From Bradyrhizobium sp. 186 (lineage in GTDB: Bacteria > Pseudomonadota > Alphaproteobacteria > Rhizobiales > Xanthobacteraceae), in contig NZ_CP082164.1 of the NCBI RefSeq assembly GCF_023101685.1, positions 1-64,000 on the forward strand: a stretch of 64,000 nucleotides of DNA. The letters are read 5' to 3'. The notes beneath the pieces were generated by a model that had not been told where the DNA came from, made no database searches, and saw only the letters and a list, made by a program, of their open reading frames with translations. The translations under genes and the position numbers were made by a program. Shown here in pieces: positions 27,933-52,630 of this stretch (the stretch's first letter is position 1; each line of letters starts with the position of its first letter).

Positions 27933-29153
27933 ATGTCGGTACAGGGTAGCATTGTCATTGGCGGCGGCGCGTTTGCCGGCCTCGCGCTGGCCCTAGCGCT
28001 GCGGCAGGGGCTCGGGCCCGAGATTCCCGTCATCGTTGCCGACCCCGCGCTTGCGACACGGCCGAGCCGCGACCCGCGCGCGACCGCGATCGTGGCCGCT
28101 TGTCGCCGGCTGTTCGAGGCGATAGGCGCCTGGGACGACGTCAAGGGCGAGGCGCAGCCGATCCTCGACATGGTCGTCACCGATTCCAAGCTGGAAGACG
28201 CCACGCGTCCGGTGTTTTTGAACTTTGCCGGCGATGTCGCGCCTGGCGAACCCTTCGCGCACATGGTCGAGAACCGACGCCTGATCGATGCACTGGTGGT
28301 GCGCGCCGAGGCCGAGGGTGTCGAGCTCCGCGCCACCACCGTGGCGTCCTACGATTCGCGCGCCGACGGCATCGAGGTGACGCTCGGCGATGGCAGCGTC
28401 GTCGCGGCCAGCCTCCTGGTCGCCGCTGACGGCGCAAGGTCGAAACTGCGCGAACGCGCCGGCATTGCCACCCATGGCTGGGAGTATGACCAGTCCGGCA
28501 TCGTCGTCACCGTCGGTCACGAGCGCGATCACGAGGGGCGTGCGGAAGAACACTTTTTGCCCGCAGGCCCATTCGCGATCCTGCCGCTTTCCGGCAAGCG
28601 ATCGTCACTGGTGTGGACCGAGCGCCGGGCGGAAGCCGCGCGCATCGTGGCTCTGAGCGATGAGGAGTTTCACGGCGAGCTCGAGCAGCGCTTTGGCCTG
28701 CACCTCGGCGAGGTGAAGGCACTCGACAAGCCGCGCGCGTTTCCGCTGTCCTATTTTGTCGCGCGCTCCTTCATCGGCGAACGGCTGGCGCTGGTTGGCG
28801 ATGCCGCGCATGTCATCCATCCGATTGCGGGCCAGGGCCTCAACATGGGGCTGAAGGATGTCGCCGCATTGGCCGAGGTCGTCGTCGACGCCGCGCGACT
28901 CGGCATGGATATCGGCGAGGCCGGCGTGCTCGAGCGCTACCAGCGCTGGCGGCGCTTCGACACCATGGCGATGGGGGTTGCCACCAACTCGCTGAACTTC
29001 CTGTTTTCCAACCAGTCGACGCTGCTGCGCACCGTGCGCGACATCGGCCTCGGCCTTGTCGACCGCGCGCCGCCGCTGAAGAATTTGTTCATCCGCGAGG
29101 CCGCCGGACTCACCGGCGAGGTGCCGCGGTTGTTGAAGGGCGAGGCGCTGTAA
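27933..29153 (+). CDS. UbiH/UbiF/COQ6-family FAD-dependent hydroxylase
   Basis: Flavoprotein monooxygenase of the ubiquinone-biosynthesis group; it would hydroxylate the aromatic ring of a ubiquinone precursor. The 406-aa protein begins MSVQGSIVIGGGAFAGLALA, an FAD-binding Rossmann start. The second FAD motif is GERLALVGDAAHVIHPIAGQ followed by GLNMGLKDVAALAE, diagnostic of this family. DGARSKLRERAGI is the middle DG motif. The ATG at 27933 is chosen over upstream in-frame starts, which run through repeat DNA. Which ring position it modifies cannot be told from sequence. Confidence 0.93.
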   Translation: MSVQGSIVIGGGAFAGLALALALRQGLGPEIPVIVADPALATRPSRDPRATAIVAACRRLFEAIGAWDDVKGEAQPILDMVVTDSKLEDATRPVFLNFAGDVAPGEPFAHMVENRRLIDALVVRAEAEGVELRATTVASYDSRADGIEVTLGDGSVVAASLLVAADGARSKLRERAGIATHGWEYDQSGIVVTVGHERDHEGRAEEHFLPAGPFAILPLSGKRSSLVWTERRAEAARIVALSDEEFHGELEQRFGLHLGEVKALDKPRAFPLSYFVARSFIGERLALVGDAAHVIHPIAGQGLNMGLKDVAALAEVVVDAARLGMDIGEAGVLERYQRWRRFDTMAMGVATNSLNFLFSNQSTLLRTVRDIGLGLVDRAPPLKNLFIREAAGLTGEVPRLLKGEAL

Positions 29154-29179
29154 TTCTCGCTGGCGCCGCACTCTCCACT

Positions 29180-29226
29180 GTCGTCCCGGACAAGCGAGCG
29201 TAGCGAGCGCTGATCCGGGACCCATA
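29180..29226. repeat. Left part of a family C palindrome, interrupted by IS copy 1
   Basis: GTCGTCCCGGACAAGCG ... GATCCGGGACCCATA ends exactly where the IS begins. The right part (30599-30689) resumes with ACCACAGGGAG and ends GGGTCCCGG ... CCGGGACGAC. Joined, they make a palindrome whose inner arms are GGGACCCATAACCACAGGGAG-like and CTCTGTGGTTGGGTCCC. The same family is split by IS copies 2 and 3. Confidence 0.85.
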
Positions 29227-29481
29227 TGTGGACGGCCCCCGTGGCACAAGAGCTTTTTGGTGAGATCGGATCGCTTGCATCCATATGTCCGGCCTGTTGA
29301 GTGCGATGGATTAGATCGCTGGCCAAGATGGTTTGCGCGATGCGGGTTCCAAACAACCCGGCGACCTGCTGGCGGCCAATGGGTCCCACGGAATGTCTCG
29401 CATCGTTGCTCGATCGATCGCTCCATCTGCTCCTGCAGCTCCGGGTCGGCCGGCGAGCGAGCCCGCCGGTCGGCCAATCTG
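29227..29481 (-). ncRNA. Candidate guide (seek/bridge) RNA region of IS copy 1
   Basis: IS1111-group elements are known to encode a guide RNA in the non-coding end downstream of the transposase. Here that end is 255 bp and strongly conserved among the copies. It contains ATGGGTCCC (29379-29387), the exact complement of GGGACCCAT that flanks the insertion, and CCATATGT (29281-29288), an exact copy of the target-IS junction at 29222-29229. A GGGTT/AACCC hairpin lies at 29344-29359. The transcript's limits are not determined; its existence is inferred from family knowledge and these matches. Confidence 0.6.
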
Positions 29482-30522
29482 TTAGGCGGGGACTACCGCG
29501 GCGGCATTCAACCGTGCCGCGTCGTAACTCTCGCCGCTGATCATCAGCTTCCAGGCGATGCGGGCCACCTTGTTGGCGAGCGCCACGGCCGCAAGCTTCG
29601 GCGGCTTGCGCGCAATCAGCGCCAGCAGCCAACGTGAGTGTTGGCCGCGGCCTCGTCGGGCCTGCTGGATCACGGCCGTGGCCCCGATCACGAGCAGCCG
29701 CCTCAGATCCTCGTCGCCCGCCCGGGTGATCTTGCCAAGCCTGGTCTTGCCGGCGGTGGAGTGGTCCTTGGGCGTCAATCCCACCCAGGCCGCAAAGTGA
29801 CGACCGGAGCGGAACGCCCGCGGATCCGGCGTCTTCATCACCAGCGCGGTGGCAACGATCGGACCGACCGAGGGGATCTGCGCCAAACGCCGGCCCATGG
29901 CATCGCCACGGTGCCAGGCCATCAGCCTGGCTTCGATCGCCTCCAGCTCGCTCTCGAGCTTGGCGCATTCGCGGCCCAGCACGACAAACAGCTCGCGCGC
30001 CAGGACGGGAAGCGTCTCGTCCTGCGCAATCTGCGCCAGCAACGGCTCGATCTTGTCCAGCCCCTTGGGCGCAATCAGGCCAAACTCCGCCGCATGGCCG
30101 CGGATCGTATTGGTCAACTGAGTGCGCCGGGCGATCAGCCCGTCGCGGATGCCCGTCAGCATCAATGCGGCTTGCTGCTCGGCGCTCTTCACCGGCACGA
30201 ACCGCATGGTCGGTCGGCTCATCGCCTCGCAAAGCCCTTCCGCGTCCCGTCCGTCGTTCTTGTTCCGCGACACGTAGGGCTTCACCAGTTGCGGCGCCAT
30301 CAGCTTCACCTCGTGGCCGAGCTTGCGAAGCTCTCGCGCCCAATGTTGCGAAGCCCCGCAGGCCTCCATCCCGATCACGGTCGGCGGCAACTTGGTGAAG
30401 AACTCGAGCACCTGCTTGCGCGAAAGTTTCTTGCGCAGCACAGGCCGCTCATCCTCATCAACCCCATGCAGCACAAAAATATACTTCGACGTATCCATTC
30501 CAATGCGGATAATCTGGTTCAC
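29482..30522 (-). CDS. IS110-family transposase (DEDD recombinase), copy 1
   Basis: RuvC-like DEDD transposase of 346 aa. Acidic residues are visible at Asp10 (IIRIGMDTSK), Glu53 (VIGMEACGAS), Asp90 and Asp93 (NKNDGRDAEG). The C-terminal Transposase_20 domain has IPSVGPIVATALV and the serine-bearing HSTAGKTRLGKITRAGDEDL. The start is taken as GTG at 30522, because AGGAG lies 7 bases upstream and the frame before it runs into the IS terminus. Copies 1 and 2 have almost identical proteins. It should be active, with both domains intact. Confidence 0.93.
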   Translation of the reverse strand: MNQIIRIGMDTSKYIFVLHGVDEDERPVLRKKLSRKQVLEFFTKLPPTVIGMEACGASQHWARELRKLGHEVKLMAPQLVKPYVSRNKNDGRDAEGLCEAMSRPTMRFVPVKSAEQQAALMLTGIRDGLIARRTQLTNTIRGHAAEFGLIAPKGLDKIEPLLAQIAQDETLPVLARELFVVLGRECAKLESELEAIEARLMAWHRGDAMGRRLAQIPSVGPIVATALVMKTPDPRAFRSGRHFAAWVGLTPKDHSTAGKTRLGKITRAGDEDLRRLLVIGATAVIQQARRGRGQHSRWLLALIARKPPKLAAVALANKVARIAWKLMISGESYDAARLNAAAVVPA

Positions 30523-30718
30523 GGGCGGCTCCTGCGAATGAGTTTCTGACAACCTCATTCTGGCACACTGATGCCGTAGGGGGCCGTCCACCCCATCAAC
30601 CACAGGGAGTGGTTATGACGCGAGATGGCAACTCCGAGCCTTCGCCAAACTACTCTCTGTGGTTGGGTCCCGGCCTTCGCCGGGACGACACCGAGAATAT
30701 TGCGCGGCCATCGCGCCC

Positions 30719-30919
30719 TCAATCGATCTTGCGCGCCTCTTCCGGCAGCATGATCGGGATGCCGTCGCGGATGGGATAGGCGAGTTTTGCGGAGCGCGAG
30801 ATCAATTCCTGCTTCGCCGAATCGAACTCCAGCGGGCCCTTGGTCAGCGGGCAGACCAAAATCTCCAGCAGTTTGGGATCGACGCTGTTTTCGGGGCGTT
30901 CCGTGGGCGCGTTCATCAT
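30719..30919 (-). CDS. Trm112/UPF0434-family protein, duplicated copy
   Basis: 66-aa protein identical to the one at 31193-31393. The start [18 protein letters not shown] leads into [15 protein letters not shown] and [20 protein letters not shown], the UPF0434/YcaR signature. The family folds like a zinc ribbon, but here only one Cys (VCP) is present, so zinc binding is not supported. Copy within the first unit of a tandem repeat; its upstream region contains the truncated tetR tail instead of the full gene, but the 55-bp region directly before the start codon is the same. Confidence 0.88.
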
Positions 30920-30974
30920 GATCTCCGGCGGTCGGTTGCCTCTAGCACAGAAAATCGCGGCCGCCCATCGCGCT

Positions 30975-31075
30975 TTAGGCCGACACCATCCGCAGGATCT
31001 CGTCGAGCAGGACCTGGAGCCGTGGAGCTGGAACCGGCGCTCCCGACAGCGCGAAGCCGAGAAACGTCCAGTACA
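30975..31075 (-). pseudogene. Truncated 3' end of the tetR gene in repeat unit 1
   Basis: It encodes the last ~33 residues of the TetR regulator ([20 protein letters not shown], then [12 protein letters not shown] and stop), then breaks at the repeat junction. An open frame continues upstream to 31196 through unrelated repeat DNA, but that fusion has no regulator domain and is not expected to be functional. Confidence 0.9.
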
Positions 31076-31549
31076 ACAGGGAGTGGTTATGACGCGAGAT
31101 GGCAACTCCGAGCCTTCGCCAAACTACTCTCTGTGGTTGGGTCCCGGCCTTCGCCGGGACGACACCGAGAATATTGCGCGGCCATCGCGCCCTCAATCGA
31201 TCTTGCGCGCCTCTTCCGGCAGCATGATCGGGATGCCGTCGCGGATGGGATAGGCGAGTTTTGCGGAGCGCGAGATCAATTCCTGCTTCGCCGAATCGAA
31301 CTCCAGCGGGCCCTTGGTCAGCGGGCAGACCAAAATCTCCAGCAGTTTGGGATCGACGCTGTTTTCGGGGCGTTCCGTGGGCGCGTTCATCATGATCTCC
31401 GGCGGTCGGTTGCCTCTAGCACAGAAAATCGCGGCCGCCCATCGCGCTTTAGGCCGACACCATCCGCAGGATCTCGTCGAGCAGGACCTGGAGCCGTGGA
31501 GCTGGAACCGGCGCTCCCGACAGCGCGAAGCCGAGAAACGTCCAGTACA
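31076..31549. repeat. 474-bp tandem duplication, unit 2
   Basis: Second unit, which joins on to the intact tetR gene and is therefore likely to represent the ancestral right-hand boundary. No base difference from unit 1 was seen, so the duplication is recent or maintained by recombination. Confidence 0.93.
31193..31393 (-). CDS. Trm112/UPF0434-family protein
   Basis: 66-aa conserved small protein. [20 protein letters not shown] and [17 protein letters not shown] identify the Trm112p-like/UPF0434 family; eukaryotic Trm112 activates methyltransferases, but the bacterial role is not settled. It is downstream of tetR on the same strand with a 55-bp gap. In other rhizobia this gene commonly sits beside the LON-domain and YbbN genes, which here lie 5 kb away. 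Same protein as the copy at 30719-30919. Confidence 0.9.
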
Positions 31550-41783: not shown

Positions 41784-41832
41784 GTCGTCCCGGACAAGCG
41801 CGCCCCAAGCGCGCGCAGATCCGGGACCCATA
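41784..41832. repeat. Left part of a family C palindrome, interrupted by IS copy 2
   Basis: GTCGTCCCGGACAAGCGCG ... GATCCGGGACCCATA ends at the IS. The right part (43205-43310) begins ACCAGAGGGAG and ends CTATGGGTCCCGGAT ... TCCGGGACGAC. Confidence 0.85.
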
Positions 41833-42087
41833 TGTGGACGGCCCCCGTGGCACAAGAGCTTTTTGGTGAGATCGGATCGCTTGCATCCATATGTCCGGCC
41901 TGTTGAGTGCGATGGATTAGATCGCTGGCCAAGATGGTTTGCGCGATGCGGGTTCCAAACAACCCGGCGACCTGCTGGCGGCCAATGGGTCCCACGGAAT
42001 GTCTCGCATCGTTGCTCGATCGATCGCTCCATCTGCTCCTGCAGCTCCGGGTCGGCCGGCGAGCGAGCCCGCCGGTCGGCCAATCTG
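41833..42087 (-). ncRNA. Candidate guide (seek/bridge) RNA region of IS copy 2
   Basis: The same 255-bp non-coding end as in copy 1, identical by eye, including ATGGGTCCC (41985-41993) and CCATATGT (41887-41894). Same reasoning and same uncertainty about transcript limits. Confidence 0.58.
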
Positions 42088-43128
42088 TTAGGCGGGGACT
42101 ACCGCGGCGGCATTCAACCGTGCCGCGTCGTAACTCTCGCCGCTGATCATCAGCTTCCAGGCGATGCGGGCCACCTTGTTGGCGAGCGCCACGGCCGCAA
42201 GCTTCGGCGGCTTGCGCGCAATCAGCGCCAGCAGCCAACGTGAGTGTTGGCCGCGGCCTCGTCGGGCCTGCTGGATCACGGCCGTGGCCCCGATCACGAG
42301 CAGCCGCCTCAAGTCCTCGTCGCCCGCCCGGGTGATCTTGCCAAGCCTGGTCTTGCCGGCAGTGGAGTGGTCCTTGGGCGTCAATCCCACCCAGGCCGCA
42401 AAGTGACGACCGGAGCGGAACGCCCGCGGATCCGGCGTCTTCATCACCAGCGCGGTGGCAACGATCGGACCGACCGAGGGGATCTGCGCCAAACGCCGGC
42501 CCATGGCATCGCCACGGTGCCAGGCCATCAGCCTGGCTTCGATCGCCTCCAGCTCGCTCTCGAGCTTGGCGCATTCGCGGCCCAGCACGACAAACAGCTC
42601 GCGCGCCAGGACGGGAAGCGTCTCGTCCTGCGCAATCTGCGCCAGCAACGGCTCGATCTTGTCCAGCCCCTTGGGCGCAATCAGGCCAAACTCCGCCGCA
42701 TGGCCGCGGATCGTATTGGTCAACTGAGTGCGCCGGGCGATCAGCCCGTCGCGGATGCCCGTCAGCATCAATGCGGCTTGCTGCTCGGCGCTCTTCACCG
42801 GCACGAACCGCATGGTCGGTCGGCTCATCGCCTCGCAAAGCCCTTCCGCGTCCCGTCCGTCGTTCTTGTTCCGCGACACGTAGGGCTTCACCAGTTGCGG
42901 CGCCATCAGCTTCACCTCGTGGCCGAGCTTGCGAAGCTCTCGCGCCCAATGTTGCGAAGCCCCGCAGGCCTCCATCCCGATCACGGTCGGCGGCAACTTG
43001 GTGAAGAACTCGAGCACCTGCTTGCGCGAAAGTTTCTTGCGCAGCACAGGCCGCTCATCCTCATCAACCCCATGCAGCACAAAAATATACTTCGACGTAT
43101 CCATTCCAATGCGGATAATCTGGTTCAC
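42088..43128 (-). CDS. IS110-family transposase (DEDD recombinase), copy 2
   Basis: 346-aa protein, seemingly identical to the copy 1 transposase at the sites examined: Asp10, Glu53, Asp90 and Asp93 of the DEDD domain and HSTAGK of the C-terminal domain. GTG start at 43128 with AGGAG upstream. Intact and probably active. Confidence 0.93.
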   Translation of the reverse strand: MNQIIRIGMDTSKYIFVLHGVDEDERPVLRKKLSRKQVLEFFTKLPPTVIGMEACGASQHWARELRKLGHEVKLMAPQLVKPYVSRNKNDGRDAEGLCEAMSRPTMRFVPVKSAEQQAALMLTGIRDGLIARRTQLTNTIRGHAAEFGLIAPKGLDKIEPLLAQIAQDETLPVLARELFVVLGRECAKLESELEAIEARLMAWHRGDAMGRRLAQIPSVGPIVATALVMKTPDPRAFRSGRHFAAWVGLTPKDHSTAGKTRLGKITRAGDEDLRRLLVIGATAVIQQARRGRGQHSRWLLALIARKPPKLAAVALANKVARIAWKLMISGESYDAARLNAAAVVPA

Positions 43129-43331
43129 GGGCGGCTCCTGCGAATGAGTTTCTGACAACCTCATTCTGGCACACTGATGCCGTAGGGGGCCGTCCACCCC
43201 ATCAACCAGAGGGAGGAGTGGTTACGGGGATTCGGAGTGACGCCTTCGCGCAGCAACTCAAATTCGTGGCTATGGGTCCCGGATCTGCGCTTACGCTTGT
43301 CCGGGACGACAGCCAGATGTTGGGCCGCGAG

Positions 43332-51232: not shown

Positions 51233-51260
51233 GTCGTCCCGGCGAAGGCCGGGACCCATA
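51233..51260. repeat. Left part of a family C palindrome, interrupted by IS copy 3
   Basis: GTCGTCCCGGCGAAGGCC followed by GGGACCCATA, ending at the IS. The right part (52631-52744) begins ACCCCATGAAGGAG and ends TATGGGTCCCGG ... CCGGGACGAC, with a perfect GCGCAATTGCGC at its centre. Confidence 0.85.
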
Positions 51261-52630
51261 TGTGGACGGCCCCCGTGGCACAAGAGCTTTTTGAGAGATC
51301 GGATCGCTTGCATCCATATGTCCGGCCTGTTGAGTGCGATGGATTAGATCGCTGGCCAAGATGGTTTGCGCGATGCGGGTTCCAAACAACCCGGCGACCT
51401 GCTGGCGGCCAATGGGTCCCACGGAATGTCTCGCATCGTTGCTCGATCGATCGCTCCATCTGCTCCTGCAGCTCCGGGTCGGCCGGCGAGCGAGCCCGCC
51501 GGTCGGCCAATCTGTTAGGCGGCCCCTGCCGCAGCGGCATTCAACCGCGCCGCATCGTAACTCTCTCCCGTCACCATGAGCTTCCAGGCGATGCGGGCCA
51601 CCTTGTTGGCGAGCGCCACGGCCGCAAGCTTCGGCGGCTTGCGCGCAATCAGCGCCAGCAGCCAACGTGAGTGTTGGCCGCGGCCTCGTCGGGCCTGCTG
51701 GATCACGGCCGTGGCCCCGATCACGAGCAGCCGCCTCAAGTCCTCGTCGCCCGCCCGGGTGATCTTGCCAAGCCTGGTCTTGCCGGCAGTGGAATGGTCC
51801 TTGGGCGTCAATCCCACCCAGGCCGCAAAGTGACGACCGGAGCGGAACGCCCGCGGATCCGGCGTCTTCATCACCAGCGCGGTGGCAACGATCGGACCGA
51901 CCGAGGGGATCTGCGCCAAACGCCGGCCCATGGCATCGCCACGGTGCCAGGCATCAGCCTGGCTTCGATCGCCTCCAGCTCGCTCTCGAGCTTGGCGCAT
52001 TCGCGGCCCAGCACGACAAACAGCTCGCGCGCCAGGACAGGAAGCGTCTCGTCCTGCGCAATCTGCGCCAGCAACGGCTCGATCTTGTCCAGCCCCTTGG
52101 GCGCAATCAGGCCAAACTCCGCCGCATGGCCGCGGATCGTATTGGTCAGCTGAGTGCGCCGGGCGATCAGCCCGTCGCGGATGCCCGTCAGCATCAATGC
52201 GGCTTGCTGCTCGGCGCTCTTCACCGGCACGAACCGCATGGTCGGTCGGCTCATCGCCTCGCAAAGCCCTTCCGCGTCCCGCCCGTCGTTCTTGTTCCGC
52301 GACACGTAGGGCTTCACCAGTTGCGGCGCCATCAGCTTCACCTCGTGGCCGAGCTGGCGAAGCTCCCGCGCCCAATGTTGCGAAGCCCCGCAGGCCTCCA
52401 TCCCGATCACGGTCGGCGGCAACTTGGCGAAGAACTCCGCCACCTGCTTGCGCGACAGCTTCTTGCGCAAGACCGGCTGCTCCGCCGCATCAACCCCATG
52501 CAGCACGAAAATATACTTCGACGTATCCATTCCAATGCGGATAATCTGGTTCACGGGCGGCTCCTGCGAATGAGTTTCTGACAACCTCATTCTGGCACAC
52601 TGATGCCGTAGGGGGCCGTCCACCCCATCA
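51261..52630 (-). mobile_element. IS110-family (IS1111 subgroup) insertion sequence, copy 3 (degenerate transposase)
   Basis: 1370 bp; same orientation, ends and insertion point as copies 1 and 2. Differences include the loss of one base near 51291 (TTTTTGAGAG against TTTTTGGTGAG), a diverged 3' end of the transposase gene, and one deleted base in the transposase near 51950. The non-coding end still contains ATGGGTCCC and CCATATGT. Confidence 0.9.
51515..52554 (-). pseudogene. IS110-family transposase, frameshifted (copy 3)
   Basis: Reading leftward from a GTG at 52554, the frame matches copies 1 and 2 through EAIEARLM and then changes frame, because GCCAGGCCATCAG in the intact copies is GCCAGGCATCAG at about 51945-51955 (one C lost). 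The remaining C-terminal domain (IPSVGPIVATALV to the end) stays open in the other frame. The N-terminal acidic residues are kept, but a full-length protein cannot be made without frameshifting. It might be moved by the transposase of copies 1 and 2. Confidence 0.9.

Follow-up and report, generated by a model that had tools for sequence, protein, structure and literature searches.

The non-coding 3′ end of an IS1111-type element from Bradyrhizobium very probably encodes a guide RNA whose target-reading segments change with the insertion site

The closest described systems are the seekRNAs of IS1111 elements and the bridge RNA of IS621. The IS1111 elements ISEc11, ISPa11 and ISKpn4 (Siddiquee et al. 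2024, PMC11187229) encode a seekRNA in the 3′ non-coding region (NCR), have a DEDD transposase and subterminal inverted repeats (sTIRs) with 7- and 3-nt extensions, place the top-strand guide before the bottom-strand guide, and insert without duplication; ISPa11 also targets a REP palindrome. A seekRNA copurifies with its transposase and is required for transposition, and IS1111 elements form a circular intermediate in which the ends abut. In ISEc11, an IS deprived of the segment transposes again once the segment is provided in trans as RNA, and in the published IS1111 elements the joining of the ends creates a promoter (PMC11187229). The bridge RNA of IS621 (Durrant et al. PMC11208160; Hiraizumi et al. 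PMC11208158) reads target and donor halves on opposite strands and has cross-loop handshake bases; these handshake guides pair with non-cognate DNA after strand exchange (PMC11208158). Potential donor-binding bases in a multi-loop have already been reported for IS1111 elements (Durrant et al. PMC11208160). IS110-family elements located in REPs are also known, namely ISPa11, ISPpu9, ISPpu10 and ISRm19 (Tobes and Pareja 2006, PMC1525189).

The element analysed here belongs to the seekRNA/bridge RNA kind published in 2024, and is an unusually well-documented member of it. It shares with the IS1111 elements the 3′ NCR, the DEDD transposase, the sTIR extensions, the order of the two target guides and insertion without duplication; with IS621 it shares the reading of target and donor halves on opposite strands and, possibly, handshake bases, and with the REP-targeting elements its location in a REP. 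It differs from the published seekRNA elements in host and target, and also in that the available text of PMC11187229 describes target guides, and not donor guides with covariation. It differs from the REP-targeting elements of PMC1525189, as far as that text describes them, in that its own REP resembles the CGTC type.

The window (the whole stretch of 64,000 nt that was analysed) contains three copies of the element, whose features are given in Table 1. Judged by their sequence, the three are copies of one IS1111-type element. The transposase matches the profiles PF01548 (DEDD_Tnp_IS110) and PF02371 (Transposase_20), and the NCBIfam family NF033542 'IS110 family RNA-guided transposase' with 309 bits; the closest solved structures, by sequence, are the transposases of ISCro4 and IS621. 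Its DEDD region was located by eye, at MDT (9), MEA (52) and NDGRDAE (89).

Table 1. Features of the window, with predicted guide segments; tnp, transposase gene
Feature	Position	Strand	Description and basis
REP palindrome GTCGTCCCGG...CCGGGACCCAT	29180-29225	.	Tail = right target half; sequence
IS copy 1, complete IS1111-type element, 1372 bp	29226-30597	-	In tnp sense GATGGGG-sTIR ... sTIR-CAT
DEDD transposase gene, GTG start, 346 aa	29482-30522 (coding 29485-30522; stop 29482-29484)	-	Profile matches
Left sTIR	30579-30590	-	TGGACGGCCCCC in tnp sense, preceded by 7-nt extension GATGGGG (30591-30597)
Right sTIR	29229-29240	-	GGGGGCCGTCCA, followed by 3-nt extension CAT (29226-29228)
SeekRNA/bridge-RNA-like structured segment	29255-29425	-	Covariance model R1, 148 bits, E 1.8e-42, the model being built in part from the window sequence itself
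Right-target guide (T/RTG) GGGACCCAT	29379-29387	-	Complement of right flank ATGGGTCCC; covariation
Left-target guide (B/LTG) CGGGTT	29355-29360	-	Same sense as left flank CTGTGGTT (GGTT matches); covariation
Putative right-donor guide (RDG) CCATC	29327-29331	-	Complement of left-end start GATGG
Left-donor guide (LDG) ACATATGG	29281-29288	-	Equals IS right end ACAT + first target bases ATGG; covariation
IS copy 2, 1372 bp	41832-43203	-	Structured RNA segment 41861-42031, RTG 41985-41993, LDG 41887-41894
IS copy 3, 1370 bp	51260-52629	-	Structured RNA segment 51288-51458, RTG 51412-51420, LDG 51314-51321

The features by which the IS1111 group is recognised are present. The protein combines a DEDD (RuvC-like) domain with a C-terminal Transposase_20 domain within the expected 330-350 aa (346 aa), and the motif GL-P----S(t)G, which occasionally has TA, occurs in its TA form as GLTPKDHSTAG at residue 248. 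The sTIRs, expected to be 11-13 bp and perfect or nearly so, are the pair TGGACGGCCCCC/GGGGGCCGTCCA of 12 bp, or 13 bp with the preceding G, and have the asymmetric extensions of 7 bp on the left (GATGG[GT]G) and 3 bp on the right (CAT). The longer non-coding region lies downstream of tnp, with 241 nt from stop codon to sTIR (approximately 29241-29481) compared to about 70 nt upstream. The element uses one target in one orientation without target duplication, and, as in seekRNAs, the complement of the top strand lies 5′ of the match to the bottom strand, the RTG column preceding the LTG column. The arrangement of the IS110 group (IS621 type), which has a 5′ guide RNA with the bottom-strand guide first, is not seen, since here the RNA is at the 3′ end and the order is reversed. 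In copy 3 the transposase match is interrupted (approximately 202 aa). Its guide RNA segment nevertheless matches the covariance model R1 in full (146.7 bits), and copy 3 might therefore still act in trans as a source of guide RNA.

In the whole genome (10.8 Mb in two contigs) there are 12 full-length copies and one broken copy. In the sense of tnp, the insertion context reads left flank CTGTGGTT (variable), GATGG[GT]G, TGGACGGCCCCC ... GGGGGCCGTCCA, CAT, and right flank ATGGGTCCC. The right flank is present at the 3′ end of all 13 copies, the broken one included. There are also 18 uninterrupted GTGGTTATGGGTCCCGG sites in the genome, and none with one or two extra bases. Elsewhere in the genus, the places orthologous to copies 2 and 3 lack the IS. 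All seven of the sites aligned are uninterrupted, reading CCATAACC across the insertion point in five, CCATAATC in one (L228; L numbers denote individual loci) and CCATACC in one (L249). It follows from the empty and orthologous sites that insertion neither duplicates nor removes bases. The ends of copy 1 were set from the sTIRs, the 12 other genomic copies, the 18 empty target sites and the uninterrupted orthologous sites of copies 2 and 3; the extension lengths of 7 and 3 are fixed by empty sites.

The target half ATGGGTCCCGG is the tail of the palindrome GTCGTCCCGG...CCGGGACCCAT, so that insertion is at the CCCAT tail of REPs. The palindrome resembles the CGTC-type REPs described in PMC3733652, where, in the text available, such repeats are stated not to be associated with transposase genes. 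The target palindromes are paired in a repeat of approximately 167 bp, of which genomes of the genus have anything from several to many copies, and each repeat unit offers the IS target in its inner arms.

It had been proposed, in a sequence-only reading of the window, that the non-coding segment following the stop codon is kept in all three copies and resembles a guide RNA matching its own target. The segment is indeed kept: in the stretch 29255-29554, identity to copy 1 is 100% for copy 2 and 95% for copy 3. ATGGGTCCC lies at 29379-29387, and again at 41985 and 51412 in the other copies, and its complement GGGACCCAT is found directly beside each insertion (29217, 41823 and 51251). The RNA sense is the minus strand, which is that of the transposase. 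The same reading had noted CCATATGT at 29281-29288 as identical to the junction of target and left IS end. This sequence does equal the junction at 29222-29229, likewise in all three copies, and it is a real second guide-like segment, though on the donor side (right IS end plus first target bases). The left-target guide was not part of that reading.

A chance match was considered for the 9-mer. Among 20,000 random 9-mers from the window, 248 have a full complement in the NCR, but about 217 of these would arise simply because the 9-mer itself was drawn from one of the three NCRs, leaving approximately 0.2%. An Rfam search of 29000-31500 gave no match at E up to 1, so no described RNA family was usable. 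Sameness between the copies is a matter of descent and proves nothing alone, and the weight rests on relatives with different targets.

Relatives were gathered from two sources. From 117 genomes of the genus, 66 of which had a match at E up to 1e-60, we took 30 loci and 60 further places picked among the matches listed; a set of 84,980 species genomes gave 72 loci, with Bradyrhizobium supplying the nearest named relatives. Ends were set from the inverted repeats, and loci cut by contig ends were left out. A further 44 loci in which the script recognised no repeat pair were dropped, including L015, which does show a pair (later L273). Repeated flanks were merged to give 99 and then 93 distinct elements, with transposase identities ranging from 99.7 to 42.4% and targets that differ widely. 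In L094 and L105 the transposase is present only as short open pieces. One subgroup (L053, L157-L159 and L163-L165, from genomes G074, G110 and G054) exceeds its relatives by about 100 nt in the NCR, with 355-369 nt from stop to right inverted repeat. The statistics used one element per distinct guide (n=34), and the covariance model R1 was built from 34 of the 93.

In the column aligned with GGGACCCAT, the sequence of most relatives is complementary to the right flank of the same element. Examples are CATTCCCAT for ATGGGAATG (L156), GGTGCTCA for ATGAGCACC (L082), GCTCGGTTCA for ATGAACCGAGC (L056) and TCGCGCAACA for ATGTTGCGCGA (L093). The right guide matches its own right flank in 7.00 of 9 bases, compared to 4.36 (sd 0.20) when shuffled, and the left guide matches its own left flank in 5.65 of 8, compared to 2.89; in both cases (n=34) none of 20,000 shuffles reached the observed match, although the shuffles treat related elements as independent and such counts overstate significance. 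The change of 9-mer with flank that had been suggested as a check is therefore found. For the right guide, only 26 of 34 elements have their own flank as best or joint best match, and for the left guide only 21 of 34. The right guide reads flank bases 2-9, with base 1 matching in only 35%, and the left guide reads the last six bases, of which the window element itself matches only four (GGTT). Within the 93, the right flank is missed in L094, L097, L177 and L061. A search for the left-target guide by longest common substring gave mostly noise, and the guide became clear only after alignment.

As the shuffles ignore relatedness, the corrective is provided by a transposase tree and by further elements. 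On a quick tree of the 34 model elements, the right-flank hexamer must have changed at least 19 times and the guide at least 26 times. In the close relatives L192/L201 and L088/L093, guide and flank have switched together. L179 and L183 have the right guide in common and differ in the left guide, each left guide matching its own flank; by this comparison the right and left target guides can change separately. These observations bear on the suggestion that the transposase or the fold of the REP DNA alone dictates the target, with the NCR serving as a terminator or end-binding site and the 9-mer being a coincidence fixed by descent. We consider this highly improbable. The window copies are near-identical by descent, the target is a palindrome, and protein recognition has been proposed for REP-targeting elements (PMC1525189); however, where the target of a relative differs, its 9-mer differs too and is complementary to the flank of that relative, and the joint switches of L192/L201 and L088/L093, together with the switch of the left pair alone in L179/L183, speak against it.

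An RNA fold was derived from the alignment. It has 22 pairs, of which 19 show changes on both sides. Paired cells amount to 92.0%, compared to 71.2% when shuffled and at most 41.7% for slid structures, and the covariation score is 0.589, compared to 0.201 and at most 0.089 respectively; the fold comes from the same alignment, and the comparison thus favours it over its slid versions. The consensus places the right-target guide opposite the left-target guide in one internal loop, which a covarying hairpin closes. A second region contains another such hairpin on a stem, preceded by CCATC and followed by ACATATGG. Minimum-energy folds of five single sequences show the consensus structure only in part and are not consistent; that of the window element has some base pairs between its two target guides. 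Guide CCCAT might pair with the donor-segment ATGG, but this pairing is absent from the alignment fold. On the evidence of the alignment, the RNA structure is conserved.

The fold also bears on the idea that the NCR acts as DNA, either through short homology that joins NCR and target or with the 9-mer as a captured remnant of the target. Short matches to flanks and ends could serve DNA homology too. Yet the compensatory changes, in 19 of the 22 pairs, belong to the fold of one strand and put the two target guides on opposite sides of a loop, and the reading of the two target halves on opposite strands is the published RNA scheme (PMC11187229, PMC11208160). An action as DNA is accordingly judged to have very little chance of being correct.

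It is concluded that the segment very probably encodes an IS1111-group guide RNA (seekRNA/bridge RNA) on the minus strand, which directs insertion together with the DEDD transposase. The elements of this conclusion visible in the sequence are the anatomy, the target, the empty sites, the change of guide with flank and the conserved RNA structure, and the interpretation of the IS1111 3′ non-coding end as guide-RNA-like is supported by the covariation and by the IS1111 features. By analogy with the published systems, we infer that the RNA is made, and that it binds and guides the transposase, with the circular form of the element as donor. The guide RNA would have two DNA-reading regions. In the second, CCATC would read the left IS end (GATGG), and ACATATGG the right IS end (ACAT) and the first target bases. 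RNA and DEDD transposase would then direct insertion between CTGTGGTT and ATGGGTCCC with no duplication. The joined ends of the window element would read ...CTCTTGTGCCACGGGGGCCGTCCACAT-GATGGGG.... In relatives, the right end of the NCR has a conserved CTTG (TTGACA in L099) immediately ahead of the right inverted repeat. Joining of the ends would yield CATGAT in the window or TATAAT in L099, which looks like a candidate junction promoter.

The donor side was analysed in the same 34 elements. In 33 of 34, the RNA segment is identical to the four terminal bases of the IS right end (3.97 of 4, compared to 3.12 when shuffled), over the right-end types ACAT, ACAC, ACAG, ATGC, ATAT and ATGT, the one miss being L097. 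The segment preceding the second stem is complementary to the left end in 5.06 of 7 bases, compared to 4.29 when shuffled (0/20,000). Of the left-end positions, base 5 matches in 29 elements, bases 4 and 3 in all 34, base 2 in 24, base 1 in 25, and bases 6 and 7 in 13 elements apiece; there is hardly any variation at bases 3 and 4. This putative right-donor segment is weakly linked to the right flank as well (1.97 of 7, compared to 1.60; 58/20,000). The donor matches give the guide order right-target, left-target, right-donor, left-donor.

Two of the guides run on into the DNA of the partner, and would thereby match the junctions of the product. The run-on of the right-end guide equals the first target bases in 2.79 of 3 positions, compared to 2.53 when shuffled (0/20,000), and matches the left end in 0.41 in the same register. 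The run-on of the left-target guide equals the left-end bases in 2.44 of 3, compared to 2.08 (0/20,000), and the target in 0.53. Informative lineages are few, namely CTG, AAG and ACG, to which the further elements add GTG (L319). L097 and L094 are misfits, two of the three bases fit in L201 and L061, and the window's own element has the run-on GTT where its left end is GAT. We give about an even chance to a reading in which the guide RNA of IS1111-type elements recognises the product junctions as well as target and donor separately, the left-target guide continuing into the left end of the IS, the guide for the right end continuing into approximately the first three target bases, and both tending to change along with their partner. 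The alternative of ATG as a core situated entirely between the two halves of the target was dropped, because the 18 empty sites carry GTGGTTATGGG with no extra bases; the triplet also follows the flank where flank and left end differ.

A less probable account is that the circular donor is what ACATATGG reads (IS right end plus a core shared with the left end). Its agreement with the first target bases would then be due to the shared core alone, with no handshake at the product junction. Most left ends do contain ATG one base further on, and their positions 2-4 match in 2.59 of 3, compared to 2.50 when shuffled (280/20,000). Where flank and left end differ, however, the guide follows the flank, as with AAG in L192, ACG in L102, and ATG where the left end is TTG; in L319, for which the right flank only was read, guide GTG equals flank GTG, and the match to the flank (2.79 of 3 against 2.53) was reached in none of the 20,000 shuffles.

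If the junctions are read in this manner, the run-on pattern would mirror the handshake guides of IS621, with differences in layout. The run-on bases are on the left-reading guides in the present element, and on the right-reading guides in IS621. The IS621 RNA is at the 5′ end, in the order LTG-RTG-LDG-RDG, while that of the present element is at the 3′ end, in the order RTG-LTG-RDG-LDG (compared with the IS621 descriptions available in PMC11208160 and PMC11208158). Among the open-licence papers listed, outside which subscription papers and preprints largely fall, none reports IS1111 guides in Bradyrhizobium REPs, or handshake guides in IS1111. Donor reading in IS1111 has until now been predicted by inspection, and the matches described here provide covariation evidence for donor guides and handshake-like bases. 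The match of guide to target accounts for the presence of the element in palindromes of the Bradyrhizobium type, and the 34 elements, with their at least 19 changes of right-flank hexamer, form a natural retargeting series for programmable RNA-guided DNA insertion enzymes.

The covariance model R1, built from the 34 elements, finds such RNAs in diverged relatives. It matched 55 of the 100 genomes searched, including the window's own, where it matches 30 places. Twelve of these are the full copies and one is what is left of the broken copy; the other 17 include a family approximately 37% identical in transposase. Of the matched loci, 46 were taken further, nine already among the 93 and 37 new; 17 of the new loci were scored first and 20 were reread later, three of the latter having no readable right flank. 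At least six contiguous complementary bases between guide and flank are present in 30 of the 34 new elements with a readable right flank (16/17 and 14/17), some of the successes being near-copies of elements already counted (such as L293 of L156) and nine of the first 17 forming one family. The failures are L288, L311, L317 and L278. As a control on the first 17, guides compared with flanks of other target families reach six bases in 0 of 170 comparisons; when the flank may come from any element with another guide, also one of the same family, 48 of 240 comparisons do so.

The family with approximately 37% transposase identity is a second one of IS110 type in the window's genome (L277 and L279-L289, at least 12 places), with the sTIR ATGGTCCGGCCG. 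It has the same RNA architecture and its own target, roughly TCCGCT / TnnGGGTCA.

An exact tandem duplication of 474 bp (30602-31075 and 31076-31549) begins 5 bp beyond the end of IS copy 1. It takes in part of a short gene that resembles one for a Trm112-like protein.
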